Positions 1 through 43,132 of a stretch of 48,720 nucleotides of DNA are shown here, one piece after another. Within the stretch, counting starts at the first letter, position 1; each line of letters begins with the position of its first letter. The position numbers were made by a program, and so were the translations under genes. Source of the DNA: a virus; IMG/VR virus record IMGVR_UViG_3300044491_002661, positions 1 through 48,720 of that record; one strand, 5' to 3'. The notes under the pieces were generated by a model. It searched no databases. It saw only the letters and a program-made list of their open reading frames with translations, and was not told the origin of the DNA.

Positions 1-1633
1 CACTAGTGGTACAGTTAACCTTTATCAAAATCCAGAAAATATCCAAGACGAAGTAAACAACTTGTTGGTAGCTGGCGCAGGCATTACACTCACATACAAT
101 GATACAGCAAATACTCTTACCATTGATAACAGCGAAGCCGCACCATCCTTTACTGGATTAACCGACACGCCTTCTAGCTATACAAGTTTTGCTGGAAATT
201 TTGTAAAAGTCAACAGTGGAGCAACTGGCTTAGGATTTGCTACAGCTGACACAGATGACATCAGTGAAGGTACAAACAAATACTATACAGATGCTAGAGT
301 AGATACACATTTAAATCAAAGTACTGCTAGTGCAAGCGAATACCTAAAATGGAACGGCAGTGACTATGAATGGGCAACAGTGCCGCCCGGATACACAGAC
401 AGTGATGTAAATACATTCTTAGCTGGCGGTACAGCAGGTAATATTGTTACAACAGGTTACATTGCAGGACCCGCTACACTTACAATTGATCCGGCTGGTA
501 TTGGAGATAATACAGGCACAGTTGTGATTGCGGGTAACTTACAAGTGGACGGCACACAGACCACTATAAATAGTACCGAACTAGCTGTAGATGACCTTAA
601 TATTACTATAGCTAGTGGTGCAGTCAATGCAGCCGCGGCTAACAGCGCAGGCATCACAGTTGATGGCGCAAGTGCCACACTCACATATACCAATGCAGAT
701 GATCGATGGAACCTTAATAAAGATCTAAACGTTTCTACAGTACACGGAAACTTAACAGGTGATGTAACTGGCAATGTAACTGGTGATGTAACTGGTGATG
801 TAACAGGTGATGTAACAGGTGATGTAACTGGTGATGTAACAGGTACAGTGAGTGATATTAGCAATCACAATACTGATTCACTAAGTGAAGGTACAACAAA
901 TCTTTATTACACAGACGGCAGAGCTGATGCACGTATAGGATTAGCATCAATCAACAATTTGTCAGATGTTAGTACAACAGGAGTAAATTCTGGAGAAGTT
1001 TTGAAATGGAATGGTTCGTCCTGGGCACCAGCTGTAGACAGTACAGTAGCAACCCTTGGTGGTATTGGAAATGTTAATACCACAAGTGTTGCAAACAACG
1101 ATATACTCTATTACAATAACAGTGCCAATGAATGGCAAGTTGAAAGTTTATCTGTCCTATCTATAAACAATACATTCGCAGATATATTCACAGCTAGTGG
1201 CAGTACAGACGTTTTCACATTAAGCCAAGATCCCGGAAGTCGCAATGCAATACAAGTATTTGTAGACGGTGTACCCCAGTTGACCAACAACTACACAACA
1301 TCAGGTACAACACTTACATTAGGCGGCACGCCTACAGCAGGACAAATTGTTGAAGTTAAAGGATATGGAGTTGCAGCAGGTATTGGCACACCCAGTGATG
1401 GTACAGTAACAAATGCCAAACTAAATCTAGCATACACTAGTGATCAATATGTGGGTGATAATACAACTGTTGATTTTACTATTCCGTTAGGGCATAATGT
1501 AAACAGTGTACTAGTAATACTAGATGGTTTAATATTACCACCTGTCGATTACAGTATTAGTGGAACAACACTAACTTTTACTAGTGCACCACTAACAAGT
1601 CAAAGTATAGATATAAGGTACATGCCAGTATGA
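1..1633 (+). CDS. Tail-fibre-like structural protein (5' end outside the window)
   Basis: The frame is already open at base 2 and reads through to TGA at 1631-1633, so the true start lies upstream; the TTG at 62 is only an internal codon. The product is a Gly/Thr/Asn/Ser-rich fibrous protein with motifs common in marine T4-like phage fibres: 'YYTDARVD' units, a 'GDNTGTVVIAGNLQVDG' block, and a run of seven Gly-Asp/Asn-Val-Thr tetrapeptides. It ends in a compact beta-rich domain finishing RYMPV. It shares a stretch with the protein at 10240 (bases about 393-560 against 10480-10647). By family it should be part of the distal tail-fibre or baseplate adhesion apparatus. Which fibre it is cannot be told. 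The stop overlaps the next start (ATGA). Confidence 0.75.
   Translation, partial: TSGTVNLYQNPENIQDEVNNLLVAGAGITLTYNDTANTLTIDNSEAAPSFTGLTDTPSSYTSFAGNFVKVNSGATGLGFATADTDDISEGTNKYYTDARVDTHLNQSTASASEYLKWNGSDYEWATVPPGYTDSDVNTFLAGGTAGNIVTTGYIAGPATLTIDPAGIGDNTGTVVIAGNLQVDGTQTTINSTELAVDDLNITIASGAVNAAAANSAGITVDGASATLTYTNADDRWNLNKDLNVSTVHGNLTGDVTGNVTGDVTGDVTGDVTGDVTGDVTGTVSDISNHNTDSLSEGTTNLYYTDGRADARIGLASINNLSDVSTTGVNSGEVLKWNGSSWAPAVDSTVATLGGIGNVNTTSVANNDILYYNNSANEWQVESLSVLSINNTFADIFTASGSTDVFTLSQDPGSRNAIQVFVDGVPQLTNNYTTSGTTLTLGGTPTAGQIVEVKGYGVAAGIGTPSDGTVTNAKLNLAYTSDQYVGDNTTVDFTIPLGHNVNSVLVILDGLILPPVDYSISGTTLTFTSAPLTSQSIDIRYMPV
758..841 (+). repeat. 12-bp tandem repeat, seven units, coding GDVT/GNVT
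   Basis: Seven consecutive 12-base units of the form ggtgatgtaac(t/a), the second reading ggcaatgtaact, encode a Gly-Asp-Val-Thr array inside the first fibre gene. The unit is a multiple of three, so copy changes would alter fibre length without a frameshift. Confidence 0.9.
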
Positions 1634-18947: not shown

Positions 18948-19883
18948 ATGAAAAAAAATACAGCATTCTTCGTTAATGGTGGTGCAGGTAGGATGTTATC
19001 TTCTATACCTGCACTAGAATTATACCAAAAAGAAAATCCCAAAGACGACTTCATAATTGTATGTGAAGGCGGTTGGAACATGTTCAAAGGTCACCCTACC
19101 CTGGCCCGCCTCTGTGTCACAACCGACACACCGAATGTATTCATTGAAAAAATTAAAGATAAACAGTGTGTATCACTTGAACCATATCGAGTATGGGAAT
19201 ACTACAACCAAAAGTGTAGTATAGCTCAGGCATTTGATATTGAAATCAATAAACAAGGGATTAGAGATTTGTCTGTTCCTAGTTTTCATTTGAGTACAGA
19301 AGAAGAAGTATTCGGATATCACTTAGTTGAAGAAGGAAAAAAAGAAACTAAAAAAGACAAACTAGTGGTTTTACAGCCTTTTGGAAGATCCAGTATCAAT
19401 CAAAAAGGCTATGTATACGACAATGGCGGACGTAGTTTCGATATTATGGACACAATTGCATTGGTAAAAAAACTTAAAACACATTTTGCTGTTGTATTGA
19501 TGAGTGAACATAAATTAAGCGGAGAGGATTGGAAAGGGGTAGGACAGCCTGATAATATTACTCTAAGACAATGGGCAGGCGTCATTAAAAATGCAGATCA
19601 TTTTATAGGAATGGATAGTGTAGGACAACATCTGGCAACTGCTTTAGACGTTACAAGTACAGTTGTATTTGGTAGTACTTTCCCTATTAATACAAGTTAT
19701 CCGAATCATCCAAAAGTAGATATTATTGATTTTGATGCAGAGCAAAGAGAATATAGTCCTATACGTATTGCTATGGACGATGTCACTGAAAGAAACAATG
19801 ATAGATGTTTAAAATTTAAAGACAAATACAAATGTATAGATGCAATAGTAAAATCAGCTAAAAAAGCTACAGGGGTTAAGTAA
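18948..19883 (+). CDS. GT9-family (heptosyltransferase-like) glycosyltransferase, 311 aa
   Basis: The N-terminus has a Gly-rich loop (NGGAGRML, 10-17) as in GT-B glycosyltransferases of family 9. 'VVLQPFGRSS' (about 140-149) fits the start of the C-terminal domain. 'FIGMDSVGQHLATALDVTSTVVFGST' at about 219-244 is the hallmark GT9 motif (D-S/T-G-x-x-HLAxAL..FGxT). GT9 enzymes transfer ADP-activated heptose to LPS core. Because hldE and hldD lie in the adjacent convergent operon, ADP-L-glycero-D-manno-heptose is the natural donor candidate. The acceptor (LPS, virion protein or another glycan) is unknown. First gene of a tightly packed operon; the stop and next start form TAATG. Confidence 0.75.
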   Translation: MKKNTAFFVNGGAGRMLSSIPALELYQKENPKDDFIIVCEGGWNMFKGHPTLARLCVTTDTPNVFIEKIKDKQCVSLEPYRVWEYYNQKCSIAQAFDIEINKQGIRDLSVPSFHLSTEEEVFGYHLVEEGKKETKKDKLVVLQPFGRSSINQKGYVYDNGGRSFDIMDTIALVKKLKTHFAVVLMSEHKLSGEDWKGVGQPDNITLRQWAGVIKNADHFIGMDSVGQHLATALDVTSTVVFGSTFPINTSYPNHPKVDIIDFDAEQREYSPIRIAMDDVTERNNDRCLKFKDKYKCIDAIVKSAKKATGVK

Positions 19884-21820
19884 TGAAGAAAGATGTATGG
19901 ATTGCCGGTATAACTAGAGGACATAATTCTGGTGTATGTCTTTTAAAAAACGGAGAGGTTGTTTTCAATCAAGAAGAGGAACGCTATACTAGACAAAAGT
20001 ACGACGGATCTCCTCTAGCAATGATGATTAGAATCAAAGAATATACAGATAAACTAGATTACTTAATTTTAGGAGGCACTCAGCCTGCAATCCAACAACA
20101 CGGAAGTCCTTTTTTAGAATACAGTGCTGATAATTTGTATGTAGCTTTGGCACGAAAATTGCTTTTGATTAAGCCTGCAAATCATCCAGATTGCAAAGAC
20201 TATAAAAAAGAAGATCCAGATACACATCCTCAAGTATTCGATATAGGATTAGAGCATCACAAAACACATGCGTTTACAGCATTTTTAAAAAGTGGATTCG
20301 AAAAAGCCGCAACACTGGTCATTGATGGCGCTGGTAGTTTTTTAACTGTTGGAACTGGAATCGTTTGGGATAACGATAGAACTGTTACTGGATGGGAAGT
20401 AGAAAGTATATTTGACTGTGATAGAACAAATATTAAGTATCCAATCAACACAGTTTTTAAGTCCATTGGTTGTAGAGAAAATGTTATCGGAGGAATGTTT
20501 CCTAGTCCAAATGCAGGTGATGGCTCAGCATCTTGGATGAAAAACGAAGACCATAATAGAAGTCATGTTGCACTTGTTCATGATCGCGGCGGGATTGTTA
20601 AAGCATATGAAGCAGTAACAGTTCTGGCTGGATGGAGCAGTATCGAAGCAGGTAAAACAATGGGTCTTGCTCCGTACGGAAAAGACAATCCAAAGATATC
20701 AAACTTTCAACAAACAGACTACAAAGAATGGCCGTTAATGGACAGAAATAAAGTTCTTCCAACATATCCGAACGGAGGCGAAATAGCACTACTAGGAAAT
20801 GATACTGCATTTGATGATCTTTTAGAAATACGAAAAGCTCCTTGGGGAAATAAAGCCAACGAACGAACAGGTTATAGATATGATAGAAAATTTTGTCATG
20901 ACATGGCTTGGCAAATTCAAAACGATACTCAGCGTATGGTATTAGAATGTATTTTAAAAACCAAAGAAATTACAGGTCAGAAAAATATTGTTCTCACTGG
21001 CGGCTATGCTCTAAATTGTGTTGCTAATTATTGGTTCTTAGATAAAATTAAAGAAGAAGGTATCAATTTATATGTTGAACCTGTTAGCAGTGACGCAGGC
21101 ATTGCAATGGGCGCTGCTGCTTATGGACATCATATAACACAAGGTGAGTTAGCCAACCTTACTAAGGAGATCTATACAGGAGAAGATTACAACTATACTG
21201 TAAAAGATTTAGAAGAAACTGTAAATGCTTATGCAGGCGTTGGCGGCTTACTTGTAGATGCCACAGACGAAGATGTTGTAAATTTGATTTGCGACAAGAA
21301 TATTGTGTCTGTATTCCAAGGTCGTAGTGAAAGTGGTCCACGTGCTTTGGGAAATAGAAGTATACTTTACGATCCTAGAGACCCTAATGGCAAAGATCAT
21401 GTTAACACAATTAAAAGTCGAGAATACTTTAGACCGTTTGCTGGAAGTATATTAAAAGAACATGTTCATGAATGGTTTGACCTTAAAGGAATGGAAGAAA
21501 CTCCTCATATGATGTATGCGGTAGATTGTCAGCCAGGTATTGAAGAAAAGATTCCTGCTATTATTCATGTAGATGGTACGTGCAGAATTCAAACAGTAAC
21601 ACAACAAGATAATCCTTTGTATAGAAGATTTATCGAAGCATGGTATGAAAAAACAGGATGTCCTATCATTTTTAATACCAGCTTTAATCTCGGCGGTGAT
21701 CCTCTAGTAGAGAATTTAGCAGATGCAGTAATAACATTACTGAGAAGTAAAATAGAATATTGCTATTTTCCTGAATTTGGTAAATTATTGGAGATTAAAA
21801 ATGAATCAGAAGAAACTTAA
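19883..21820 (+). CDS. Carbamoyltransferase (NodU/CmcH/TobZ family), 645 aa
   Basis: Full-length member of the O-carbamoyltransferase family. The N-terminal Kae1/YrdC-like part has 'GITRGHNSGVCLLKNGEVV', 'NQEEERYTRQKYDG', the metal-binding LEHHKTHAF (His125, 126, 129) and 'LVIDGAGSF'; further on come 'AGKTMGLAPYG' and 'LTGGYALNCVANYW'. The C-terminal domain has 'FQGRSESGPRALGNRS', 'KSREYFRPFAGS' and 'NTSFNLGGDPLVENLADA'. The enzyme makes a carbamoyl-adenylate from carbamoyl phosphate and ATP and passes it to a hydroxyl, usually on a sugar. Linkage with a GT9 enzyme and heptose genes suggests carbamoylation of a phage-directed glycan. Nucleoside modification is an alternative. Starts at TAATG. 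Confidence 0.9.
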   Translation: MKKDVWIAGITRGHNSGVCLLKNGEVVFNQEEERYTRQKYDGSPLAMMIRIKEYTDKLDYLILGGTQPAIQQHGSPFLEYSADNLYVALARKLLLIKPANHPDCKDYKKEDPDTHPQVFDIGLEHHKTHAFTAFLKSGFEKAATLVIDGAGSFLTVGTGIVWDNDRTVTGWEVESIFDCDRTNIKYPINTVFKSIGCRENVIGGMFPSPNAGDGSASWMKNEDHNRSHVALVHDRGGIVKAYEAVTVLAGWSSIEAGKTMGLAPYGKDNPKISNFQQTDYKEWPLMDRNKVLPTYPNGGEIALLGNDTAFDDLLEIRKAPWGNKANERTGYRYDRKFCHDMAWQIQNDTQRMVLECILKTKEITGQKNIVLTGGYALNCVANYWFLDKIKEEGINLYVEPVSSDAGIAMGAAAYGHHITQGELANLTKEIYTGEDYNYTVKDLEETVNAYAGVGGLLVDATDEDVVNLICDKNIVSVFQGRSESGPRALGNRSILYDPRDPNGKDHVNTIKSREYFRPFAGSILKEHVHEWFDLKGMEETPHMMYAVDCQPGIEEKIPAIIHVDGTCRIQTVTQQDNPLYRRFIEAWYEKTGCPIIFNTSFNLGGDPLVENLADAVITLLRSKIEYCYFPEFGKLLEIKNESEET

Positions 21821-22832
21821 AAAAATCAATGGACCTATTTTTGATGAATACTGGGGGATGTCTTTTGATCCAGACATAGACCCTAGGTCTAGTCATCCTG
21901 ATAATCCAAATGATAATTATCGTGTACGTAGGTGGGACGAGTTTATCGACGGGATGGATCCTGACGAACCCGGACCCCCTTGGGATCCTAACTATATTCC
22001 AAACTATGCTTTCGATCTCAAAGACGGAAAATACAATAATTATTGGCGACAATTTGAAATAGATAGAAACACGCTAACAGATGCACAGGTTGCAGAAAAA
22101 TATCCTAATCTGACAACAGAATATATCACAGACGATGATATAGTAGAATACAAAGAAAAGATGGTATATGCACTAGAACAAGGTTGTATATATTTTCAAG
22201 TAGGCGGATATCATCCGACAGGTGATATCATTGATGGAACTCCGATTACCGAATTGCCCGGCAGTGATCTTTTAGTTAATCATCCCTTGCACACTATAAA
22301 AAAATATTGGGTTACACTCAGAAGTGATCAGGCTCCTCAAGGAAAAAATGCACCTGACCAAGATTTTACCACCACAGATCCTCATGTTTGGGCTTGGTGC
22401 GGGGATACAAACGACTGGTTAAGTATAAACATTAGAAGGATACAACACATGTGGGACACACATTTTTATAAATGGAACGCAGAACAACATTGGTTAATAG
22501 GCAAATTATCCAAATATCAAGCAAAACTCACATATAAGAAAGATCCAACTTTACCTAGTCGTCCTGCAACGTTAAGTGTAAATGATCCAAACTTGGTGAC
22601 AGTTAATGTTACTATTCCAGAAGATCTAGAACAAAACAAAGTCCCTTTTGAAAATCGTTGGGATCTAGATGTAGAAGTAGCATTTTTAGATATTGATAAC
22701 AACTGTAAATTGGTATTACCTCTTGCTGCATTGTATAATTTGGATATAGAAGATAGCCATATGAAGTTACCTGATCCAAGAGAAGATGATCAACATCCTG
22801 AACACGAACAATGGAAACTAGAACAACAATGA
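21801..22832 (+). CDS. Unknown protein in glycan operon, 343 aa
   Basis: I choose the ATG at 21801 (MNQKKLKK) rather than an upstream in-frame codon, because 'ggag' lies at the right distance; the gene overlaps the carbamoyltransferase end by 20 bases. The N-terminal third is rich in Pro/Asp/Trp/Tyr ('DEYWGMSFDPDIDP', 'DPDEPGPPWDPNYIP'). The middle has several Trp and His ('HPLHTIKKYWVTLRSDQAP', 'HVWAWCGDTNDW', 'HMWDTHFYKWNAEQHW'). No catalytic signature is recognised and there are no membrane segments. Operon context alone connects it to glycan work; a structural role is equally possible. Confidence 0.6.
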   Translation: MNQKKLKKINGPIFDEYWGMSFDPDIDPRSSHPDNPNDNYRVRRWDEFIDGMDPDEPGPPWDPNYIPNYAFDLKDGKYNNYWRQFEIDRNTLTDAQVAEKYPNLTTEYITDDDIVEYKEKMVYALEQGCIYFQVGGYHPTGDIIDGTPITELPGSDLLVNHPLHTIKKYWVTLRSDQAPQGKNAPDQDFTTTDPHVWAWCGDTNDWLSINIRRIQHMWDTHFYKWNAEQHWLIGKLSKYQAKLTYKKDPTLPSRPATLSVNDPNLVTVNVTIPEDLEQNKVPFENRWDLDVEVAFLDIDNNCKLVLPLAALYNLDIEDSHMKLPDPREDDQHPEHEQWKLEQQ

Positions 22833-23194
22833 CACAACTTAATGGCGTTCAAGAAAAAGGCTGGGGCCGAGAATTAATTTGGGCCACTAATGAAAAGTAT
22901 TGCGGTAAAATTATGTTCTTTGATAAAAAAGGGGCTAAGTTTAGTATGCACTTTCACAAAGATAAAGATGAAAGTTGGTATGTTTTGAATGGTAGTTTTA
23001 CACTACACACAATGGATACTAACACAGCAGAGTTACACACACAAGTATTAACCAAAGGTGAAACTTGGCGCAATGAACCAATGTTACCTCACCAGCTGTT
23101 GGCCATGGAAGATAATAGTATTATTATTGAAGTTAGTACACCCGACAGTGTAGAAGACAATTACAGAATTGGAAAAGGAGATAGTCAACAATGA
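22829..23194 (+). CDS. Single-domain cupin (sugar isomerase/epimerase-like), 121 aa
   Basis: The ATG at 22829 overlaps the upstream stop (ATGA); an in-frame ATG six codons earlier is less likely. Cupin motif 1 is perfect: G35-x5-H41-x-H43-x4-E48-x6-G55. Motif 2 is GETWRNEPMLPHQ with His88. These His/His/Glu/His residues would bind one divalent metal. The opening 'GWGRELIWATNEKYCGKIM' is like the C-terminal cupin of type II mannose-6-phosphate isomerases. In this operon a sugar-phosphate isomerase or nucleotide-sugar step is plausible, but single cupins are functionally diverse and the substrate cannot be read. Confidence 0.75.
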   Translation: MTQLNGVQEKGWGRELIWATNEKYCGKIMFFDKKGAKFSMHFHKDKDESWYVLNGSFTLHTMDTNTAELHTQVLTKGETWRNEPMLPHQLLAMEDNSIIIEVSTPDSVEDNYRIGKGDSQQ

Positions 23195-24015
23195 GTAAGT
23201 TATGGGTGTTCGGAGATAGTTTTGTTATAGAAAAAAACAAACATTACGATTTTACTAACTCTGTAGATTGGGCTTGGCATAAACAAATTGCTAAAAAATT
23301 AAAATGTGAAGAAATAAGAGTTGTCGGAGAGTTTGGTATTAGCAATGAATTCCTGATGAATTTGATTATGAAAAACAAACATCTTATTAGTAAAGATGAT
23401 TATGTAATTATTATTACAACACAAATAGGAAGACAATGGCTTTTAGAAAAATTCCCAGAGTACGCAAATATTTCAGGATTATTTCATAGTGATCGTATTC
23501 AAAAGCAAGGCCTACCTAAAATTAGTAAAAAACAGAATAATGCATTGGTGAATTATTTGAACGAAATATTTCCTGATAATAGTATCACCTTAGGTCATTT
23601 GTTCTTAGAATCATTTTTGTGTTGGATCGGTTGTCAAGCAGAAATATTCAACTGGGGTCAGACTTTTGTAATGAGTGGATTTGAAAGCCAACAACTACAT
23701 CATACTCAAGTTAGCTTATATGATTTAGAAATGACAGAATTTACAGACCACAGTATCAAACAGTATTTTCTTGATCAAGGCCAAGGCGTAGATAGAAGAA
23801 TTATGCATTTAAGCAAGCCAAGTCATGACTGGTTAGCTGACAAAATAGTAGAATGGTATGAAACCAAATGGAAGCCAGATGTCGATTGGACTTTACCTGA
23901 TGTTGAACTTCTGTTTCCTGACAAACAAAGTGTATTGGACTGGTCAGGTATTGGTGAATACAACACTATAGAAAACGAAGGACCGAATATGTATTCACGA
24001 ATTCCACTTGTTTAA
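23191..24015 (+). CDS. SGNH/GDSL-hydrolase-like protein, 274 aa
   Basis: Begins MSKLWVFGDSF: the GDS block I serine (Ser10) is at the expected place. A matching C-terminal block with Asp/His lies near 198-213 ('DRRIMHLSKPSHDWLADKI'), as in SGNH hydrolases, where the last His activates the serine. 'GISNEFLM' near 50 could supply the Gly/Asn block. Such proteins remove or add acyl groups on sugars. In this operon it may acylate or deacylate the same glycan that GT9 and the carbamoyltransferase act on. Starts by ATGA overlap with the cupin. Its 3' end overlaps the convergent hldE 3' end by 21 bases. Confidence 0.6.
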   Translation: MSKLWVFGDSFVIEKNKHYDFTNSVDWAWHKQIAKKLKCEEIRVVGEFGISNEFLMNLIMKNKHLISKDDYVIIITTQIGRQWLLEKFPEYANISGLFHSDRIQKQGLPKISKKQNNALVNYLNEIFPDNSITLGHLFLESFLCWIGCQAEIFNWGQTFVMSGFESQQLHHTQVSLYDLEMTEFTDHSIKQYFLDQGQGVDRRIMHLSKPSHDWLADKIVEWYETKWKPDVDWTLPDVELLFPDKQSVLDWSGIGEYNTIENEGPNMYSRIPLV

Positions 24016-25137
24016 TATTTTGGTAGTACTATAACCTTGTACTGTGGGCACAATATGCACAGGTGCAAGGTCATGTCCTACAATTTCTTCTACAGTATAA
24101 TCTCCGCCTTTAACAATCATGTCAGGCTTTAGTTGTTTAATTAATTTGTACGGAGTGTCTTGGTCAAACACAATCACTTGGTCTACATAAGGTATAAGGC
24201 CAAGTTGCTCTAGTCTTGTTTGTTGATCGTTAATAGGACGATTGTTTCCTTTGAGACGCTTAACACTTGCATCACTGTTTAGACCTACAATCAATTTATC
24301 TCCTAAACTACGAGCTTCTTTGAGTAATGTTAAATGTCCTTTGTGTAATACATCAAAACAACCATTGGTGAATATTACACGTTTTTGTAAATCTTTTTCT
24401 GTTAATATATATGTACCAACGTGTTTTACACTTTCTGTTGAACCTTTAACAGCTAGCTCGACAGCCTTTTTGTGATCATAGCCGTTGGTAAGTGCATACA
24501 CAAATGCAGCTAAAAAACAATCACCGGCTCCAGTAACATCTGAGACTTCTACTGGTTCTACAGGAATTGTATATTTGATATTATCTATTGTAGCACTCAC
24601 ACTGTGACCTGCATCTGTGGTGATAATATTACCCTGCCATTCGTCAAATTCAAACTTAGTGTATTCGTTATGGTTAGGTTTTACTAACCAAGCGCCTTGG
24701 TATTCATGTGCATATCGCTTTGGGTCTACAATTACTTTAGGCCCTTGACTGTTAATATGTGCGATAATTTGTTTTGCATTATCTAGCACACCTTTGTCAT
24801 AATCGCTTAGTATAACATAGTCGTATTCTGAAAAATCACTACATAATACTTTGTCTAATATCACACCAGATTTTGCATCTTTATCGTCATCTATTCGTGT
24901 AATGTAATGTCCGTCACATATAATGCGTGTTTTTATACTGTGTGGCTGATTTGTTTCAAATAATGTAACATTTACACCTAGACTTTTAAGATTTTCGTAA
25001 ACAAGACCTGCACCTCCGAGTGTTTCGACTTCGTGTAGATACTTAACTACAGGTACAGGCGCCTCGGGACTTATACGTTCTGAAGTGCCATATATATATT
25101 TGTCGACGATTACATCGCCAAGAACTAATACTTTCAT
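23995..25137 (-). CDS. hldE: Bifunctional D-glycero-beta-D-manno-heptose-7-phosphate kinase / 1-phosphate adenylyltransferase
   Basis: N-terminal PfkB-type kinase (1-250): 'GDVIVDKYIYGTSERISPEAPVPV', 'TLGGAGLV', 'VILSDYDKGVL', and DVTGAGD (200-206) with Asp206 as the expected catalytic base. C-terminal nucleotidyltransferase (252-380): 'VIFTNGCFDVLHKGH' with the HxGH motif at 265-268, then 'RLKGNNRPI' and 'KGGDYT'. The enzyme phosphorylates heptose-7-P at O1 and, after a GmhB-type phosphatase, adds AMP to give ADP-heptose. It has 380 residues against about 475 in E. coli. The shortening is mainly in the kinase domain, after 'NVTLF', with core motifs intact. No gmhA or gmhB is in the window, so the host must supply those steps or they lie elsewhere. 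Coupled to hldD (ATGA). Confidence 0.92.
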   Translation of the reverse strand: MKVLVLGDVIVDKYIYGTSERISPEAPVPVVKYLHEVETLGGAGLVYENLKSLGVNVTLFETNQPHSIKTRIICDGHYITRIDDDKDAKSGVILDKVLCSDFSEYDYVILSDYDKGVLDNAKQIIAHINSQGPKVIVDPKRYAHEYQGAWLVKPNHNEYTKFEFDEWQGNIITTDAGHSVSATIDNIKYTIPVEPVEVSDVTGAGDCFLAAFVYALTNGYDHKKAVELAVKGSTESVKHVGTYILTEKDLQKRVIFTNGCFDVLHKGHLTLLKEARSLGDKLIVGLNSDASVKRLKGNNRPINDQQTRLEQLGLIPYVDQVIVFDQDTPYKLIKQLKPDMIVKGGDYTVEEIVGHDLAPVHIVPTVQGYSTTKILNKWNS

Positions 25138-26018
25138 AGATTATCCTCTACAAATTCTTCGGGTGTAATAAACTTATAATTCTCTAAATTAGACATCAGA
25201 TAGTTGTTGTCACTGCATGTATATTTTTGATAGATTTTTTGTAATTCCTCTGGTACTGGTATGTATTCTATTTCGGCATTATAGTGTTTAGCAATAAGAT
25301 CTCCCCATTGCTGAAAACTGTATGTACTGCCTGTTCCCAAATTACTTATGAAACTTTTATGCTTGTTCATATAGATACTGTACATAATCTCAACAACATC
25401 GTCAACACAAATAAAGTCTCTGAGTACTTCGTGGCTGTTGTCAAACAGTTTGATTACACCTGTTGTTTTTGCCTGATGTATAAAATTACTGTATGGGCTT
25501 GCCATACCAGCATGTACTTTGTGATGTTCTCTGTTTCCATACACATTAAAGAAACGCCAACTTTGGATCTTAGATATGTGTTTATTATTCAAAAAACTGT
25601 TATCACACATCATTTTAGTAGCTGCATACATATTCTTAGGTGCTAAATTACTGCTAACTTCTTGTGTATCGATGTTGTCACCATACACACTTGCACTACT
25701 AGCAAATACAATATTTTTAAACTTATTAGATAATTTTCTTGTGTAAACTACATTGTTGTGATAGATGCTATCCCAATCGTCGCTGCTAGTTTTACTATTA
25801 GCGCCTAAGTGCCACAATGTACAAGCTGTTACATCTCCAAAATCTTTCAACAACAATTCATCTGGACTTATAAAGTCTACAAATTCAAACCCTGCAAGGT
25901 TTGCCACTTTGTGTTGGTCGAGTGTATCTACACAAACAATATCTGTGTGCCCGTGTTCGTTTAAGTGTTTTACCATGTTACTGCCGATAAACCCAGCAGC
26001 ACCTGTTACAATATGCAT
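25134..26018 (-). CDS. hldD: ADP-L-glycero-D-manno-heptose 6-epimerase
   Basis: Extended short-chain dehydrogenase/reductase. NADP-binding GAAGFIG is at 6-12, 'ASSASVYG' near 106-113, and the catalytic YAATK is at 131-135. The family-specific segment 'RFFNVYGNREHHK' follows, then 'FNLGTG'-like SNLGTGSTYSFQ. The match to E. coli HldD runs end to end, including 'HAGMASPYSNF' and 'RDFICVDDV'. It is 294 residues against 310 in E. coli. It interconverts the D,D and L,D forms of ADP-heptose, completing the donor for heptosyltransferases. First gene of the minus-strand operon, under a strong sigma70-like promoter at 26040-26068. Confidence 0.93.
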   Translation of the reverse strand: MHIVTGAAGFIGSNMVKHLNEHGHTDIVCVDTLDQHKVANLAGFEFVDFISPDELLLKDFGDVTACTLWHLGANSKTSSDDWDSIYHNNVVYTRKLSNKFKNIVFASSASVYGDNIDTQEVSSNLAPKNMYAATKMMCDNSFLNNKHISKIQSWRFFNVYGNREHHKVHAGMASPYSNFIHQAKTTGVIKLFDNSHEVLRDFICVDDVVEIMYSIYMNKHKSFISNLGTGSTYSFQQWGDLIAKHYNAEIEYIPVPEELQKIYQKYTCSDNNYLMSNLENYKFITPEEFVEDNL

Positions 26019-26112: not shown

Positions 26113-26529
26113 ATGAATATTAAAAAAGCGTTTTGGTTCACGTTGGGTTGTTTACTAGTAGGCGTTGCTTTTATTGGTGTATACTTACCCGGACTTCCAT
26201 GGAGTACACCTGCTGTTGGCGCTGCTTATTGTTTTGCAAAAAGCAGTGACCGTATGCATAACTGGATTATGAACCATAAACTGTTTGGCCCATTTTTACG
26301 AGGCTGGAGTGAAAAGAGAATATTTCCCACAAGGTTTAAGTACTTTATGATTGCTACTATGAGTACAAGTATAGCGTTTGTATGGTTCAGTACAGGAAAT
26401 ATTAAAGCTGTATTATGGAGTGGTGGATTTATGGCACTGGTTGCAATATGGGCATGGAGATATCCAGGAAGCGAACAAGAGCACCAAAGACGCAAAGATC
26501 TTGGACTTAGAACAGCTTGGCTTAAATGA
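26113..26529 (+). CDS. DUF454 (YbaN-like) inner-membrane protein, 138 aa
   Basis: N-terminal hydrophobic segment (about 8-30) leading into '[44 protein letters not shown]', the characteristic DUF454 signature (IGxxLPxLPTTPF..FAxSS.R.....L.H..FGP). Two further membrane segments lie at about 76-95 and 98-116. Members are small inner-membrane proteins whose function I do not know to be established. The stop overlaps the ALAS start by ATGA, so the protein is co-translated with tetrapyrrole enzymes. This makes a membrane role linked to heme or bilin metabolism a testable idea, not a conclusion. Confidence 0.8.
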
Positions 26530-27710
26530 TAGATAAAGACAAATTTCAAAGTGTCATTGACACCTTGAAGTTACAAGGAAACTATAGAGTATTCAACGAT
26601 ATTTTGCGGGAACGTGGGTTATATCCACAAGCAATACATTATGGCCCGTATAATATTAAAAATATTGTAAACTGGTGTAGCAATGATTATTTAGGTATGG
26701 GGCAACATAAAATTGTACTAGATGCGATGCATACTGCACTAGATCAGACGGGCGCAGGTAGCGGCGGCACTAGAAATATAAGTGGAACTAGTCATTATCA
26801 TGTTGCACTAGAATACGAACTAGCGCAATTGCACAACAAACCGTCGTCTTTGTTATACTCTAGTGCATATGTTGCTAATGAATGGAGTTTGATAGCATTA
26901 AGCAAAATAGTAAACGACATTGAATTCATCAGCGATAGTAAGAATCACGCTAGCCTTATACAAGGAATACGACACAGTGCAGCACCTAAACATATATTTG
27001 AACACAACAATATGCAAGAGTTGGAAGATATTCTTAAAACAGTATCTGGCACACCGTGTATTGTATTTGAAAGTGTATACAGCATGGACGGCTGTGTGAG
27101 TAATATCCAAGAGATAGTAGATCTTGCAGACAAATATAATGCAATAACATATATTGACGAAGTGCATGCAGTTGGGTTATACGGAGAACAGGGCGCAGGA
27201 TATCTAGAAAAACTAGGACTACAAGATAGGATCGATTTTGTCAATGGAACGTTAGGAAAAGCATTTGGTTGTCAAGGCGGTTATATTGCAGGAGACAGTG
27301 TTGCTATAGATGCTATACGTAGTGTAGCAAGTGGATTTATTTTCACCACTAGTTTAAGTCCTGTAATGTGTGCTGGTGCATTAGCTGCTATAAAATACTT
27401 GCGTAGCGAAAATGGTGTAGCACTTAGACAGCAACATCAAAGTAGAGCAAATGTACTCAAAAGCCTATTAGCAATAAACAACATCGATGTTATTGACAAC
27501 GAAACGCACATTGTTCCTGTACTAGTAGGAGATGCTGTAAAATGTAAACGTATAAGTGATGAACTCATCACCGACCATAACATATATGTACAGTCTATAA
27601 ATTATCCTACAGTAGAAGTAGGAACTGAAAGATTACGGTTTGCGCCAACACCTCTGCATACAGATGCAATGATAAACGACCTAGTAGACAAATTGAAAGC
27701 AGTATTATGA
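26526..27710 (+). CDS. hemA: 5-aminolevulinate synthase (Shemin pathway), viral ALAS
   Basis: A fold-type I PLP enzyme condensing glycine with succinyl-CoA to 5-aminolevulinate, the first committed step of tetrapyrrole synthesis. It has the ALAS-specific glycine-rich block [13 protein letters not shown] (76-88), with Thr82 at the position that sets succinyl-CoA preference; '[16 protein letters not shown]' (His141); '[10 protein letters not shown]' (Asp211, His214); the PLP lysine in TLGKAFG (Lys245); and '[23 protein letters not shown]'. These features separate it from BioF, KBL and serine palmitoyltransferase. It has 394 residues, close to bacterial ALAS, and looks complete and functional. 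It starts at ATGA overlapping DUF454 and ends at ATGA overlapping the bilin reductase. The C4 route is typical of Alphaproteobacteria, hence the host inference. ALAS genes in aquatic phages have been reported before. Confidence 0.95.
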
Positions 27711-28375
27711 GTGAAATATGGGATAAAATGATTGAGTGTGAAAGTGCTATTATAGAAAAATGTTCAGCACTAGGAGAAGAAACTTTCGATGATCCCGAGT
27801 TTGGGTGGCTTAATCGAGTGTTTCGTGGAGAACATTTTAGACGAGCACACATAGACAGTGTTGATGCTAGAGATTCAAAAGGTCTGTATATGACTCACAT
27901 CTGTGTGTTTCCTAACTATAACAATGATGCTCCTATATACGGTTTTGATATTATATGTGGTAAGAACAAAGTTACAGGTGCATTTCATGATTATAGTCCA
28001 ACGGCTGATTGGAATCACCCAATGGTAAACTTGTTTGGAGAGTTTGTACAAGATTTAGAATGGAAGAAAGAACGACAATTGCCAGACTGGGCGCAAGCTA
28101 TATTCAGCAAACACATGGTAGCCGCAAGCAATGTTAGAATAGAAGAAATGCAACAGGTTGTAACTATGGCATTAGACAATTTGGATACATACTTAGCTGA
28201 ACTTCCAACGTATACTACATCTAGTGTCGACTCTGCGTTAATACGTGAAAAACAAAATAGATATTGTGCTTATCAAAAGCAGAATCCACATACACCTAAA
28301 GTCATGGAAAGTTTAGGACTAGATCCAGAAGACGTTAGAACGTTTATTGACGAATGTTTGTTTCCGGAAGACTAA
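27707..28375 (+). CDS. pcyX: Ferredoxin-dependent bilin reductase, PcyA/PcyX-type
   Basis: Aligns by eye with PcyA along most of its length: 'HFRRAHIDS' (FRKMHLEL in Synechocystis PcyA), '[20 protein letters not shown]' with His64 and Asp81 (His88 and Asp105 of PcyA), 'AFHDYSPT', '[10 protein letters not shown]', '[22 protein letters not shown]'. PcyA Glu76 corresponds here to Asp50. The family reduces biliverdin with electrons from ferredoxin to phycobilins. Phage members are known: PebS in cyanophage and PcyX in marine phage, both making phycoerythrobilin. I favour PcyX by closeness to PcyA and by the ALAS neighbour, but the subfamily and product cannot be fixed by eye. It is 222 residues, usual for phage members. 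No heme oxygenase is in the window to supply biliverdin. Confidence 0.88.
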
Positions 28376-28830
28376 AAACTATCTAACCAGTTTGGCAAGT
28401 CTAGTTTGTCCTTTTGACGTTCGTATATAGTAGTAATCTTCTCTACCATTTCTGTGTTGTTTAAAATTAAGTAAGCGCCTCGGTGTAATGGCTTAGGCCA
28501 ACAGTCTATGCTAACCCAAGCATAGCCTGCACTTTCATGATTGCAACGAGGAATAAACTCTTCAAATACTGTAACACAAAACGTGTTGTAGGTAAACTTT
28601 TTATCTTCACTTAAAAATGTATGTAGTGGATAAACCTTTTCAATATCAGGCAATGGCCCTAATTCTTCTTTGCATTCACGTAATAGTGTTTCGACAGGAC
28701 GTTCTTTGCGTTCAGCTTTGCCTCCCCAAAAGCTCCACTTGAGTGGATGACTTGAATTTTTACTTCTTTGCTGTAACATTATTCTGCCTGTGTCGAGGGA
28801 AAGAAAACAGCATCCGCTTGCTTGTATCAT
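28372..28830 (-). CDS. NUDIX hydrolase, 152 aa
   Basis: NUDIX box GKAERKERPVETLLRECKEELG matches G-x5-E-x7-R-E-x2-E-E-x-G, preceded by 'LKWSFWGG'. The family hydrolyses nucleoside diphosphates linked to another moiety, using Mg. The substrate (8-oxo-dGTP, a nucleotide sugar, NAD-type compounds) cannot be told. I take the ATG at 28830 (MIQASGCC), which forms TAATG with the gp15 stop; an in-frame ATG six codons earlier is possible. Its 3' end overlaps the end of the convergent bilin-reductase gene by 4 bases. Being last in a gp14-gp15 transcript, it is probably expressed with virion genes. Confidence 0.85.
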   Translation of the reverse strand: MIQASGCCFLSLDTGRIMLQQRSKNSSHPLKWSFWGGKAERKERPVETLLRECKEELGPLPDIEKVYPLHTFLSEDKKFTYNTFCVTVFEEFIPRCNHESAGYAWVSIDCWPKPLHRGAYLILNNTEMVEKITTIYERQKDKLDLPNWLDSF

Positions 28831-30227
28831 TATAGGTATAGTCGCCAAAATCCTGGATTATATGTACCCTCAAATGAATTGATCCATTCTGTACCTGTCC
28901 ATTTTAGACTGTCTAAAGTTGTTAGATTTGTAGTGTATTGTATAGTGTCTGTTGTACTAGCGTCAAATACAATATTCCAATTGCTGCCGTCGTATTCGAT
29001 AATATCGTGTTTTTTAGCATTAGCAGCCCATACGCCGTTTGATCCGGGAGTGTCTTGGGTCAGTAAATATCTATCTCCAGTTGCACTTGCTGTTAATGTG
29101 CCATCTCCGGGAAAGTTAATTTGTGGATTAATAACAGCAGAAATAGGTGATAGTGTATTGCTTGGAATTGTATTAGAATCTAATGTGATATCTAATAGAT
29201 TTACGTTGCTAGTATTTAATTTTATATTTCCTACAATATCGTTTGCTGTAACGCTTGGATCATTGGATAATACAAGTCTTATCTGACTAACACTGTCTCT
29301 AAATTCACCGAAGCTTTTAAATACATTCTTCCAGTCTAGCAAATTCCCGTTATTGTCTAAACTACTGCCATTTAAATTTAATAGCTGTGCATTAGCATTA
29401 CCTGCATTATCAATTGTAAATTTCATCTTGTATTGATCCATTGTAACAACTTGATAGCTGGTAAAGATAGGAGTATAGCTACCACCTGCTCGTAATAAAT
29501 CCAATCCGGAATCATCTACTTCATCGATGTTGTCAATAATAGTGTGAATCACAGTGTTGCGTAATACTTTAGCAGGAGGGTTAATTAGTATAGGTAGTTG
29601 GAACGTAAGTGTACTGATATCAATAATATCATCTACGCCACTGGGTATTGCTCGCATACTCCATGTAGTACTAATAAGTTCTACATAGCTGAGTGTACTC
29701 CAGTCTAATGGATTATCGTTGGTGTGTATGTTTAGTGTTGGATTAAACAGTACAAGTATTTGCTCTAGTAATTGTAATTTTTGTTCTGTGTTTGATGTCC
29801 ACAAATCAACTTGCATTGTTAATGTGTAAGGTACAGGTTGATGACGCTTAATACTGTATACGTTGCCTACTTCGTTTTCATAACTACCAGTTTCTTCGTT
29901 GTATTTCTTTTCGTAGACAGGCATTGTTTCTTCGTATTGTGCATATGTTCTGCTCTGTGGAGCAGTTTCTAATCCAGTAACATGACAACTAATAAACGGT
30001 GTTGTTTGTAGCATATTCTCAGAATTTTCTCTGACAATGTGTGCAGCCATACGACTAACATCACCGTAGCGTACAGGCACAGTTTGATAAACTACATTAC
30101 CTTCTTTATTGGTATGCATTGCAACTTGAAATCCAGCGAAGATACGAATAAATTGCTGAATGTATTTGCGCATTTGCTTATCGTAGAAGTAAGGAACCGC
30201 TGTGATTTTGCTATTTTGGTATGCCAT
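28830..30227 (-). CDS. Tail completion / sheath terminator protein gp15-like, 465 aa
   Basis: The N-terminal ~230 residues have the T4 gp15 character: 'YFYDKQMRKYIQQFIRIFAGFQV', 'VPVRYGDVSRMAAHIVRENSEN', 'MPFISC'-like TTPFISCHVTGLE, 'PYTLTMQVDLWTSNTEQKLQLLEQILVLFNP', 'LTFQLPILINPPAKV'. gp15 caps the tail tube and sheath and joins the tail to the neck. T4 gp15 is 272 residues; the extra C-terminal ~200 residues here carry 'GDRYLLTQDTPGSNG' and 'DIIEYDGSNWNIVFD', a domain seen in marine T4-like neck proteins. Coupled to gp14 by TAATG. In T4 genes 13-14-15 are collinear with the tail genes; here 14-15 are on the opposite strand. Confidence 0.8.
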   Translation of the reverse strand: MAYQNSKITAVPYFYDKQMRKYIQQFIRIFAGFQVAMHTNKEGNVVYQTVPVRYGDVSRMAAHIVRENSENMLQTTPFISCHVTGLETAPQSRTYAQYEETMPVYEKKYNEETGSYENEVGNVYSIKRHQPVPYTLTMQVDLWTSNTEQKLQLLEQILVLFNPTLNIHTNDNPLDWSTLSYVELISTTWSMRAIPSGVDDIIDISTLTFQLPILINPPAKVLRNTVIHTIIDNIDEVDDSGLDLLRAGGSYTPIFTSYQVVTMDQYKMKFTIDNAGNANAQLLNLNGSSLDNNGNLLDWKNVFKSFGEFRDSVSQIRLVLSNDPSVTANDIVGNIKLNTSNVNLLDITLDSNTIPSNTLSPISAVINPQINFPGDGTLTASATGDRYLLTQDTPGSNGVWAANAKKHDIIEYDGSNWNIVFDASTTDTIQYTTNLTTLDSLKWTGTEWINSFEGTYNPGFWRLYL

Positions 30228-34047: not shown

Positions 34048-34084
34048 GTTAACCTTCATATCCCCCCTGATATATAGTGGTCCT

Positions 34085-34092
34085 GGTAAATA
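34085..34092 (+). promoter_or_regulatory. Late promoter box of gp18 (GGTAAATACTACTA)
   Basis: GGTAAATA, 35 bases before the sheath ATG. The following CTACTA extends the match with the gp4 and gp17 boxes. The leader has 'agaggag'. Confidence 0.55.
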
Positions 34093-34127
34093 CTACTAGC
34101 AATTACTTTTATCAGAGGAGCAATAAT

Positions 34128-36596
34128 ATGGCATTAGTATCACCAGGTGTAGAGGTTCAAGTAGTAGATGAAAGTGCATATGGCGCCCCGGGCGCAGGCA
34201 CAGTACCACTATTACTTGTAGCAACACGTTCAGACAAAACAGATCCAACTGGTAGTGAAGTAGACGGAAAAGCGAAATATACAAAAACAGCAAATGCAGG
34301 CGAAGTAGTAAAAGTTACTAGTCAGCGTGAACTAACTCAATATTTTGGTAATCCATTATTCACTACAACAGGAACAGCAATATCACAAGGCAGCGAAACC
34401 AGCGAATATGGATTAATGGCTGCATACAGTTATCTAGGTCAAGGTAGTCAAGCATACATTGTTAGAGCAGACATTGATCTTGCACAATTAGAAAATAGTG
34501 CAACTGCACCAACGGCGGTGTATAGTACGGCTAATACACTGTGGTTAGATACAGATGCAAGTAAATTTGGAATTCATCAGTGGAACAACACAACTAGCAA
34601 GTGGGAAAATAAGATTCCAGCAGTTGAAATTAACGCAGACGATGGTACAGACGTTGTAGGTGATGTACATACTCCAACCACAGCCGCAAGCGGTGCAACA
34701 GACGGAACATTCCTAGTTGTAGTACATGTTGACAATGAAACATCAGTAAGTCCAACTAGACAAATGAGTATTGAATACTTTTATGGCGTAGGCGGTGCAT
34801 GGGAAGTAATGGACAGTGATTCTGACATGACTGGCGCAATTGGCGTAACTTATGATGCGCACTATAATGCACCAGCAAGTCCGACAGCAAATGATGTTTG
34901 GATTAAAACAACACGTCCGGGTAACGGTTTGGTACTAGCACTAAGCACACACAATGGTACAGCATTTACATCTGCTACAGTACAAGGTATTAGTACTACA
35001 CAAGCTGACGGCCAAGGATCCATTGGCGATTTTGTAGCACAAGACGGTTCAAGCACAGCTTCATTAACCGTAAGCACATCTACAGTAGGTGCTTATTTGT
35101 TAGACCAACAAGCAAATACTAAAGCTACTATTGTTATTAGAGAAGTAGTAACAGGCGGTGTCGTAGGCGATTTAACAGCAACTACAGTATTAGCACAATC
35201 TGCAACACCGACTGGAACACTAGCTACAGGTACATATTGGTTTGATAATGAAATCGACAAATTGGACCTATACAAAGTAAACAGTGGTTCTTACGCAACA
35301 ACTAGTGCAACATACAGTACAGCCGCGCCAACAGGACCAGCCAGTGGTGATGTTTGGGTTGATACAACACTATCAGCTGAAGGTCAAACTAACGAACGTG
35401 CTTATCCAAATATTAAAGTTTACAACGGAAGCGCATGGATACAGCATGATAATACTGATCAAACAACTACAACAGGTGTATTATTTGCAGATATTTACGA
35501 AGGTGGAGGATCACCAATCCCAGGCGCACCAGACGCAGTTGTTTATCCAGATGGAATGTTAGTAGTTAACATGGCACAGAGTAAAAACACAGTGCGTAAA
35601 TGGAACGGTACTGCTTGGAGAAACGGTACAAGTAATCATGCAGATGGTAGCGGACGTTTTGGCAGACATGCGCAACGTGGTGTTATCACAACTGCGATGC
35701 AGGCAGTAGCGACAGGTACAGATCTCAGAGATCCAAGCAACAGATTTAGCTTGATTGCTGCACCGAACTATCCTGAACTAGTAGACGAAATGGTTACATT
35801 AAACAGTGATCGTGGAGAAACAGCATTTATCATTGTTGATTCGCCAATGCGTAAAAATCCAACTGATGTTGTTAACTGGACTAAAAACAGCGGAAATGCA
35901 ACAGAAAATGGAGAAGATGGATTAGTAACAAACAACACATATAGTGCAGTTTATTATCCTTCAGGTCAAACAACAGAGCCAGTTGCTGGAAATACTGTTG
36001 TAGTACCAGCAAGTCATATGGCGCTGTACACATATGCATACAACGATAATATTAGTTTCCAGTGGTTTGCCCCAGCAGGTACAACACGTGGTGTAGTACA
36101 AAACGCAACCGCAGTTGGATACATTACAACAGAGAATGAATTCAAAGCTGTTGCACTAAGTCAAGGACAGCGTGATGCAATGTATACTGACAAACTAAAT
36201 CCAATTACAACATTCCCAGGACAAGGAACAATTGTATTTGGACAAAAAACATTACACACAACAGCGAGTTCGTTGGACCGTGTTAATGTTGCACGTCTGG
36301 TAGCATATCTCAGAGATAGATTCGATGAACTAGCTCGTCCGTTCTTGTTTGAAGTTAATGATGTGCAAACAAGAGCAAGAGCTAAAGTTGCATTCGAACG
36401 ATTCCTTGCAGATATTTTGAGTCGTCGAGGACTTAATGACTTTGCAGTAGTATGCGACGAATCTAATAATACACCAGCAAGAATTGATCGTAATGAATTT
36501 TATGTTGATGTTGCAATTGAACCTTCAAAAGCAGCAGAATTCATCTATATTCCGATTAGATTAACAAATACTGGTGCATTATCAGCAACAAACTAA
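34128..36596 (+). CDS. Tail sheath protein gp18, 822 aa
   Basis: The start is the ATG at 34128 (MALVSPGVEVQVVDESAYG), preceded by 'agaggag' at the right spacing; the frame extends upstream but without support. N-terminal MxLLSPGxE-type sheath start, and C-terminal sheath domain 'VNVARLVAYLRDRFDELARPFLFEVNDVQTRARAKVAFERFLADILSRRGLNDFAVVCDESNN', the most conserved part of T4-like sheaths. This forms the contractile sheath around gp19. It has 822 residues against 659 in T4; the excess lies in the central surface domain (about 130-480), rich in repeats like 'TGTLATGTYWFDNE' and 'ASPTANDVWIKT'. Terminated by a strong hairpin at 36616. Confidence 0.95.
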   Translation: MALVSPGVEVQVVDESAYGAPGAGTVPLLLVATRSDKTDPTGSEVDGKAKYTKTANAGEVVKVTSQRELTQYFGNPLFTTTGTAISQGSETSEYGLMAAYSYLGQGSQAYIVRADIDLAQLENSATAPTAVYSTANTLWLDTDASKFGIHQWNNTTSKWENKIPAVEINADDGTDVVGDVHTPTTAASGATDGTFLVVVHVDNETSVSPTRQMSIEYFYGVGGAWEVMDSDSDMTGAIGVTYDAHYNAPASPTANDVWIKTTRPGNGLVLALSTHNGTAFTSATVQGISTTQADGQGSIGDFVAQDGSSTASLTVSTSTVGAYLLDQQANTKATIVIREVVTGGVVGDLTATTVLAQSATPTGTLATGTYWFDNEIDKLDLYKVNSGSYATTSATYSTAAPTGPASGDVWVDTTLSAEGQTNERAYPNIKVYNGSAWIQHDNTDQTTTTGVLFADIYEGGGSPIPGAPDAVVYPDGMLVVNMAQSKNTVRKWNGTAWRNGTSNHADGSGRFGRHAQRGVITTAMQAVATGTDLRDPSNRFSLIAAPNYPELVDEMVTLNSDRGETAFIIVDSPMRKNPTDVVNWTKNSGNATENGEDGLVTNNTYSAVYYPSGQTTEPVAGNTVVVPASHMALYTYAYNDNISFQWFAPAGTTRGVVQNATAVGYITTENEFKAVALSQGQRDAMYTDKLNPITTFPGQGTIVFGQKTLHTTASSLDRVNVARLVAYLRDRFDELARPFLFEVNDVQTRARAKVAFERFLADILSRRGLNDFAVVCDESNNTPARIDRNEFYVDVAIEPSKAAEFIYIPIRLTNTGALSATN

Positions 36597-41581: not shown

Positions 41582-43132
41582 ATGAGCGTAGATACAAATT
41601 TAATCAAAAGCCCGTACAAGAAAGAGAAGTTCAATCAACAACAGATTGAAGACCTTGTAAGATGTACACAAGATCCACAATATTTTATTGAAAACTTTGT
41701 TTGGATTCAGCACCCGGTCAAGGGCAGAATGAAGTTCAACTTGTTCGATTTTCAACGTGGACTATTAGATGCTTACCATAATCACAGATACAGTATAGCA
41801 CTTATCAGTAGACAAATGGGTAAGTCAACTGCGGCCGCTGCATATTTGCTATGGTATGCTATGTATGTGCCTGATCAGACAATCCTTATTGCAGCGCACA
41901 AGTACAGTGGTGCTCAAGAGATTATGCAACGTATAAGGTTTGCTTATGAACTATTGCCGGATCATGTACGTGCAGGTGTCACAGCATACAACAAAGGTAG
42001 TTTAGAGTTTGACAATGGTAGTCGTATTATCGCACAAGCTACAACAGAAAATACTGGTCGTGGTTTAAGTATTTCGCTAGCATACTTAGACGAGTTTGCA
42101 TTTGTGCGTCCTACTATTGCTCGTGAGTTTTGGACATCACTAAGTCCTACACTTAGTACAGGTGGTAAATGTATTATTACAAGTACACCAAACCAAGACG
42201 ATGATCAATTTGCACAGATTTGGCGAGGCGCTTGTAATACACTAGATGAATTTGGCAACGAAAAAGTTGTTGGTAAAAACGGATTTAAAAGCTACAATGC
42301 TGATTGGAAAGCACATCCTGACAGGGATCAAAAATGGGCAGATGAAGAAGAAGGTAAAATAGGCGAAGAACGTTTTCGCAGAGAACACCTCAATGAATTT
42401 ATTGCGTACGACGAAACACTCATTAGTAGTTTAAAACTTGCTATGATGGAAAGCAAAGATGTATACAAACGTACAGGGCAAGTGCGATGGTATAAAAACA
42501 TTACCAAAGGTGCTACTTATATTGCGGGCCTAGATCCAAGTTTGGGAACAGGTGGGGACAATGCTGCTATACAGATATACGAACTTCCGGGCATGCGCCA
42601 AGTAGCAGAATGGATGCATAATAAAACTAGCATCACAGAACAAATACGTATTATGCGAAGTATGCTAATGGAAGTGCAAGACGCCGCACCAGAAAGTGAA
42701 ATATACTGGAGTGTAGAAAACAATACACTAGGAGAAGCAGCACTTGTGGTTATATCTGAAATGGGAGAAGAAAATATACCAGGTCAGTTTATAAGTCAGC
42801 CTCGCAGTGCTAACAGAGGATTTAGAAAAGGGTTTACAACTACAAACAAAAGTAAACTCGCGGCATGTAGTAAACTTAAAACTTGGGTCGAAACAGACAA
42901 GATGGAAATTGCCAGTAGTGCATTGTTGAGAGAGATTAAAACATTCATTGCTAGAGGCAGCAGTTTTAGTGCTAAAGACGGTGAAACAGATGATTTGGTA
43001 ATGGCATGTGTGCTAGTTGTGCGTATTGCTCAACAAGTAGCTCAATACGATGAAGCTACATTTGATGAGCTCAAAGATAGTTTCTCTGATGAAGAGTCAG
43101 TTGAGCCTATGCCTTTTGTGTTTCTAACATAA
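41582..43132 (+). CDS. Terminase large subunit gp17 (packaging ATPase/nuclease), 516 aa
   Basis: ATPase domain: Walker A SRQMGKST (76-83), Walker B LAYLDE (Asp170, Glu171), and the coupling motif ITSTPN (199-204). Nuclease domain: 'YIAGLDPSLGTGGDNAAI' with Asp318, 'VENNTLGEAAL' and 'DDLVMACVL' provide the RNase H-like acidic residues. It packages DNA into the prohead and cuts the concatemer. 516 residues against 610 in T4; like other marine T4-like terminases it lacks much of the T4 N-terminal extension. No Shine-Dalgarno sequence is present and the leader would be about three bases. Confidence 0.97.
   Translation: MSVDTNLIKSPYKKEKFNQQQIEDLVRCTQDPQYFIENFVWIQHPVKGRMKFNLFDFQRGLLDAYHNHRYSIALISRQMGKSTAAAAYLLWYAMYVPDQTILIAAHKYSGAQEIMQRIRFAYELLPDHVRAGVTAYNKGSLEFDNGSRIIAQATTENTGRGLSISLAYLDEFAFVRPTIAREFWTSLSPTLSTGGKCIITSTPNQDDDQFAQIWRGACNTLDEFGNEKVVGKNGFKSYNADWKAHPDRDQKWADEEEGKIGEERFRREHLNEFIAYDETLISSLKLAMMESKDVYKRTGQVRWYKNITKGATYIAGLDPSLGTGGDNAAIQIYELPGMRQVAEWMHNKTSITEQIRIMRSMLMEVQDAAPESEIYWSVENNTLGEAALVVISEMGEENIPGQFISQPRSANRGFRKGFTTTNKSKLAACSKLKTWVETDKMEIASSALLREIKTFIARGSSFSAKDGETDDLVMACVLVVRIAQQVAQYDEATFDELKDSFSDEESVEPMPFVFLT

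Follow-up and report, generated by a model that had tools for sequence, protein, structure and literature searches.

The ALAS (5-aminolevulinate synthase), PcyX, and heme oxygenase of phages are of a known kind and have already been published by Wegner et al. 2024 (PMC11480375). In that work, viral HemO and the viral ferredoxin-dependent bilin reductase (FDBR) were shown to be active, PcyX produced phycoerythrobilin, the antenna pigment of cyanobacteria, in vitro, and a related viral AlaS (the CB_2 phage homologue) complemented an ALA auxotroph. Meanwhile, viral AlaS in E. coli caused porphyrin build-up and light sensitivity, which co-expression of phage HemO and FDBR did not reduce (PMC11480375).

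Here, we analyzed a virus record of 48,720 bases from a large uncultivated phage (the whole stretch is called the window below), the features of which are listed in Table 1. Like the published hemO-pcyA/X-valaS cassette (PMC11480375), the locus combines a viral ALAS with a PcyX-class reductase of aquatic myophages; complete or broken cassettes occur in both cases, and relatives of the window phage, like the published phages, encode heme oxygenase in the same genomes. Unlike the cassette, the locus has overlapping ALAS and pcyX genes and a leading DUF454 gene, while heme oxygenase is absent from the window and lies about 20–39 kb away in relatives. DUF454 is unmentioned in the main text of Wegner et al. 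(PMC11480375). In the Pelagibacter phage Mosig, the PcyX, which is the nearest among isolates, is 45% identical to that of the window and has the same catalytic Asp/His/Asp set, but hemO stands directly before pcyX, a layout shared by two more distant contigs (L030 and L041). The neighbours of hemO-pcyX in Mosig include a gene annotated as a putative ferrochelatase, along with several 2OG-Fe(II) oxygenases (L304:4354-5124). In certain bacterial gene pairs, too, a heme enzyme has a DUF454-family gene next to it on the same strand, but the partner is heme oxygenase rather than ALAS, and the DUF454 is of a different branch.

Table 1. Positions of the operon and its neighbours in the window.
Feature	Position	Strand	Length	Remark
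Tail-fibre region gene	62-1633			At the left edge of the window
HldE/HldD heptose-sugar pair	23995-26018	-		Divergent from the operon; flanks the DUF454 side
DUF454 (YbaN-type) inner-membrane protein	26113-26529	+	138 aa	PF04304, 96 bits
ALAS/DUF454 junction	26526-26529	+		ATGA start/stop overlap, read from the sequence
5-aminolevulinate synthase (viral AlaS)	26526-27710	+	394 aa	TIGR01821, 550 bits
ALAS/PcyX junction	27707-27710	+		ATGA start/stop overlap, read from the sequence
PcyX-type ferredoxin-dependent bilin reductase	27707-28375	+	222 aa	PF05996, 78 bits; match to 5owg
Nudix gene	28372-28848	-		Flanks the pcyX side of the operon

Gene Content and Layout of the Locus

A preliminary description of this DNA had reported three genes joined by ATGA overlaps, and all three were found where it had placed them, with ATGA at both junctions. 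The layout DUF454-ALAS-pcyX was common to contigs such as L002–L009, with ALAS and PcyX 82–100% identical there, and the operon is therefore not a product of chance. Judging by the gene identities, the catalytic residues, and the layout as read from the sequence, the region 26113-28375 is a phage tetrapyrrole operon.

The surface-sugar block adjoining the operon (18948-26018) contains a GT9 heptosyltransferase-like gene, a NodU-type carbamoyltransferase, a cupin, HldE, and HldD. It is retained in relatives with a shuffled gene order and probably serves LPS modification.

The ALAS and the Bilin Reductase

The identification of the second gene as ALAS was borne out by the profile search, in which the protein far exceeded the equivalog cut-off of TIGR01821 (338.6 bits), while the next scores, those of the KBL/BioF/SPT relatives, were 307 and 301 bits and fell under their own cut-offs. 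The best PDB match was the ALAS 7x98 (426 bits), and the best solved relatives were true ALAS enzymes. The hallmark [13 protein letters not shown] was present in the test of the Thr82 region. The PLP lysine K245 was retained on realignment, as both K245 and T82 were kept in 41/41 phage and 21/21 bacterial sequences. A tree of these 62 sequences (41 phage, 21 alphaproteobacterial) separated the phage proteins from the bacterial ones with an SH-aLRT of 100, in agreement with Wegner et al. (PMC11480375). The protein is predicted to have ALA synthase activity. Viral ALAS genes are frequent in aquatic phages, and a single IMG/VR scan returned 526 relatives.

Lys339 of the window ALAS occupies the position of the heme-inhibition residue His342 of R. 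capsulatus. As this position also varies in bacteria, with His in only 3 of the 21 alphaproteobacterial enzymes compared, Lys339 tells little about a loss of heme feedback and was dropped as a sign of it.

The 222-residue protein belongs to the FDBR family, as had been claimed, since its PF05996 score was well above the cut-off of 31 bits. Its His64/Asp81 pair aligned with His88/Asp105 of PcyA and was kept in 25/25 reductases compared. The preliminary description had left the class at PcyA/PcyX; the closest solved protein was PcyX (5owg, 210 bits), with PcyA at 56 bits, and the predicted class is now narrowed to PcyX. Asp50 was found in the window protein and in all 22 non-cyanophage rows, and Glu in three cyanophage PcyA; equating D50 with the published Asp55 of PcyX (the Glu76 position of PcyA) assumes an 8-residue tag in the 5owg chain numbering. 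Given the PcyX class, phycoerythrobilin would be the expected product.

The Heme Oxygenase Step

Searches of the window for heme oxygenase by tblastn and with a profile built from eight phage proteins gave no significant hit (best E 0.16), so nothing in the window as it stands makes biliverdin. The earlier reading of the pathway was right about the enzymes but had overlooked this missing step, which longer relatives encode. In four ALAS-pcyX relatives (G017, G018, G036, and G038), heme oxygenase and pcyX are encoded on the same strand, 20–39 kb apart, and the heme oxygenase gene is located beyond the tail-fibre genes. Since the window starts inside the tail-fibre region, where contigs G011 and G032 also end, we consider it quite likely that the phage encodes heme oxygenase just off the left end of the window. 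The relative contig G036 is 198 kb long, so the window probably covers about a quarter of the genome.

DUF454 as a Partner of Phage ALAS

The DUF454 protein passed the gathering cut-off of PF04304 (35 bits) and thus shares its Pfam family with E. coli YbaN, but its 57.6 bits against the YbaN equivalog NF007818 lie far under the cut-off of 163. It is 79–84% identical to the DUF454 proteins beside ALAS in distant phages. Its AlphaFold2 model (pLDDT 81) was all-helical, with long helices at residues 3–24, 73–94, and 97–115 and shorter ones at 31–44, 46–53, and 59–68; by the positive-inside rule, the conserved segment 45–72 would be cytoplasmic, on the same side as the soluble enzymes. A structure search of the model against the PDB gave no match (best E 2.4), and the fold thus offers no clue to a mechanism. 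The invariant His55 was dropped as a candidate heme ligand, as it is missing from some bacterial heme-oxygenase-linked DUF454 proteins read by eye.

In a first ALAS-anchored scan of viral contigs, DUF454 was adjacent on the same strand in 49/80 loci. A second, independent scan, which used a distant query, found it downstream of ALAS on the same strand in 70 of the 80 loci (within 1 kb in 61, within about 3 kb in nine more); in the remaining 10, no more than 1.4 kb separates ALAS from the contig end. When the scan was anchored on DUF454 instead, 65 of 80 phage genes had ALAS within 2 kb (56 in the order ALAS-DUF454 and nine in the order DUF454-ALAS), and 15 stood without adjacent ALAS. The contigs come from related phages and are not independent, so the true sample is smaller than the counts suggest; the value of 35/41 ALAS clusters with DUF454 is unusable as a rate, as part of that set was drawn from the DUF454 scan. 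The independent signal for the link is the two gene orders together with the layout of L010–L014, where DUF454 directly precedes pcyX without ALAS. DUF454 is not indispensable, given the 15 of 80 DUF454 genes that lack an ALAS neighbour and the 19 relatives in which no DUF454 adjoins ALAS-PcyX. We conclude that it is a near-constant, formerly overlooked partner of phage ALAS, and this is the new part of the finding. The preliminary description had rightly called it a small inner-membrane protein, but had treated it as incidental, although it carries most of the new information here.

Among near relatives, ALAS comes and goes as a discrete unit: it is inserted cleanly between DUF454 and pcyX in L006–L009 and is missing from that place in L010–L014. 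In L179 (2399-4414), one ALAS is flanked by two different DUF454 copies.

Among 50,697 isolated-phage records, no true DUF454 relatives were found; the matches to DUF454 and ALAS were below 40% identity, resembled host sequence or BioF/KBL, and were rejected. PHROGs held no family matching the phage DUF454. A literature search for DUF454, judged by titles, returned no phage paper, and none was found on DUF454 together with heme oxygenase. We found no known function for this widespread family, which is here assigned a likely pathway, and a near-constant ALAS partner offers a concrete, testable handle on the purpose of viral ALAS.

Proposed Pathway and Bacterial Relatives of DUF454

The explanation that we favour, and consider probable, is a tetrapyrrole operon that joins ALA supply, heme, heme oxygenase, and PcyX with DUF454 as a membrane partner. 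The window ALAS would supply ALA, from which the host would make heme. A heme oxygenase of the phage, whose gene probably lies just beyond the fragment, would open heme to biliverdin, iron, and CO, and PcyX would reduce biliverdin to phycoerythrobilin with four electrons from ferredoxin. DUF454 would be a dedicated inner-membrane partner for the heme end, most likely handling heme, porphyrin, or bilin. The enzyme activities, the raised flux proposed in the preliminary description and its purpose, the heme oxygenase as a phage gene, and the role of DUF454 are predictions. A porphyrin- or heme-handling membrane partner could fit the gap left by the co-expression of HemO and FDBR in E. coli. In a stronger form, which we put forward tentatively and hold to be rather less likely than not to be correct, the phage DUF454 is a near-obligate fourth tetrapyrrole component that handles heme, porphyrin, or bilin, by export, sequestration, or delivery, so that ALAS runs without light-activated porphyrin poisoning. 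If true, no DUF454 protein would have been given a function before this one, and the uncured porphyrin build-up in E. coli would be explained.

DUF454 is also found beside heme oxygenase in some bacteria. In a set of 106 genomes from the order to which a Marinomonas genome belongs, five of the six top-scoring heme oxygenases (22 matches in all) had a same-strand DUF454 gene no more than 2.5 kb away, and for four of the five the distance was at most 150 bases; by our own calculation, chance would give about 0.01 such pairs across the 22 matches. A further DUF454 gene was located elsewhere in all five paired genomes, and most of the bacterial DUF454 genes read did not lie near heme genes. Among 133 Alphaproteobacteria genomes, none of the nine with heme oxygenase had DUF454 beside it, and no ALAS-DUF454 pair was seen. 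Haem oxygenase (137/1,111) and DUF454 (118/1,111) are listed in a published survey among the commonest neighbours of T11SS loci linked to iron/heme uptake (PMC12282271), and DUF454 is induced in Avibacterium when iron is restricted (PMC7970244). We infer that DUF454 is a membrane protein serving heme/tetrapyrrole metabolism, and the bacterial link to heme oxygenase makes the idea testable outside phages.

The bacterial pairs could also be read in terms of iron. The module would then free iron from the heme of the host, while PcyX removes the biliverdin and DUF454 acts with heme oxygenase. As judged by eye, genes for a TonB-dependent receptor or for TonB/ExbD are close to the pairs in L287 and L288, and the induction of DUF454 in iron-restricted Avibacterium (PMC7970244) would fit as well. 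However, heme synthesis by way of ALAS consumes the very iron that is to be released, so that ALAS contributes nothing to the net gain of iron, and we regard iron release as unlikely, although it is the strongest of the alternatives.

The Module in Other Phage Contigs

In another reading, ALAS is the main point: the phage would sustain respiration by supplying heme, and PcyX and DUF454 would be passengers kept by linkage. Heme supply is the purpose favoured by Wegner et al. (PMC11480375). ALAS with DUF454 is indeed far commoner than ALAS with adjacent PcyX, and in many phages with ALAS no PcyX adjoins it. Against this, many of these genomes encode a PcyX-type reductase and heme oxygenase at other places. 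ALAS, DUF454, heme oxygenase, and FDBR were found together in 13 long phage contigs (G048, G049, G054, G067, G068, G070, G071, G072, G079, G082, G086, G089, and G094). ALAS was missing from G057 and G059 and FDBR from G058, and the long contigs G055, G045, and G088 had DUF454 alone or with ALAS only; all of these contigs are fragments, so the absences are not firm. The catalytic residues are kept, and DUF454 was drawn from more than one stock, whereas a mere passenger would have no need of repeated recruitment. Heme supply as the main point seems to us improbable, slightly more so than iron release.

Origins of the DUF454 Gene

The evidence for more than one stock came from the DUF454 tree, in which the window protein fell among the DUF454 proteins of distant ALAS-DUF454 phages and the proteins at the same site in L006–L014 formed another clade. 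Holding the two groups together was rejected (log-likelihood 135 lower, p-AU 4e-72), with the groups for this test having been picked after the first tree was seen. As the ALAS of L006 is close kin of the window ALAS (85% identity), separate DUF454 clades stand beside closely related ALAS, and the DUF454 slot was thus filled or refilled from two different stocks. The phage DUF454 proteins formed one clade that was not nested in the bacterial heme-oxygenase-linked group.

One ancient joint capture of ALAS and DUF454 followed by inheritance, without functional coupling, could also lie behind their adjacency, and it would suit the observation that the phage proteins make up a single group in the case of ALAS and in that of DUF454. 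Such a history does not readily account for both gene orders, the double DUF454 of L179, DUF454 beside pcyX alone, or the different nearest kin of the window DUF454 and ALAS, and no such operon was present among the 133 Alphaproteobacteria; we give it a small chance.

Host and Phage Affinity

Among isolates, the terminase (TerL) and the sheath were nearest to the PA5oct-like jumbo phages of Pseudomonas (56% and 47% identity, respectively), and the nearest isolates of the tail sheath and terminase (34077-36596 and 41582-43132) were not pelagiphages. The LPS heptose genes suggest a Gram-negative host. The non-cyanobacterial host proposed earlier is plausible in view of the Pelagibacter isolate with PcyX and the PA5oct-like structural genes. 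The use of the bilin in a light-harvesting or photoreceptor protein of the host would suit the antenna pigment made by PcyX in vitro, but this is very improbable, as had been judged before, since no bilin-binding protein was found among the window proteins scanned against Pfam (part of the ORFs), the one isolate whose PcyX is close is a Pelagibacter phage, and the structural genes are not closest to those of cyanophages.

Phage-type ALAS-DUF454 pairs were also seen in the MAG contigs L229 and L230, labelled Flavobacteriales and Neomarinimicrobiota, which are likely misbinned phage contigs or else clues to hosts.
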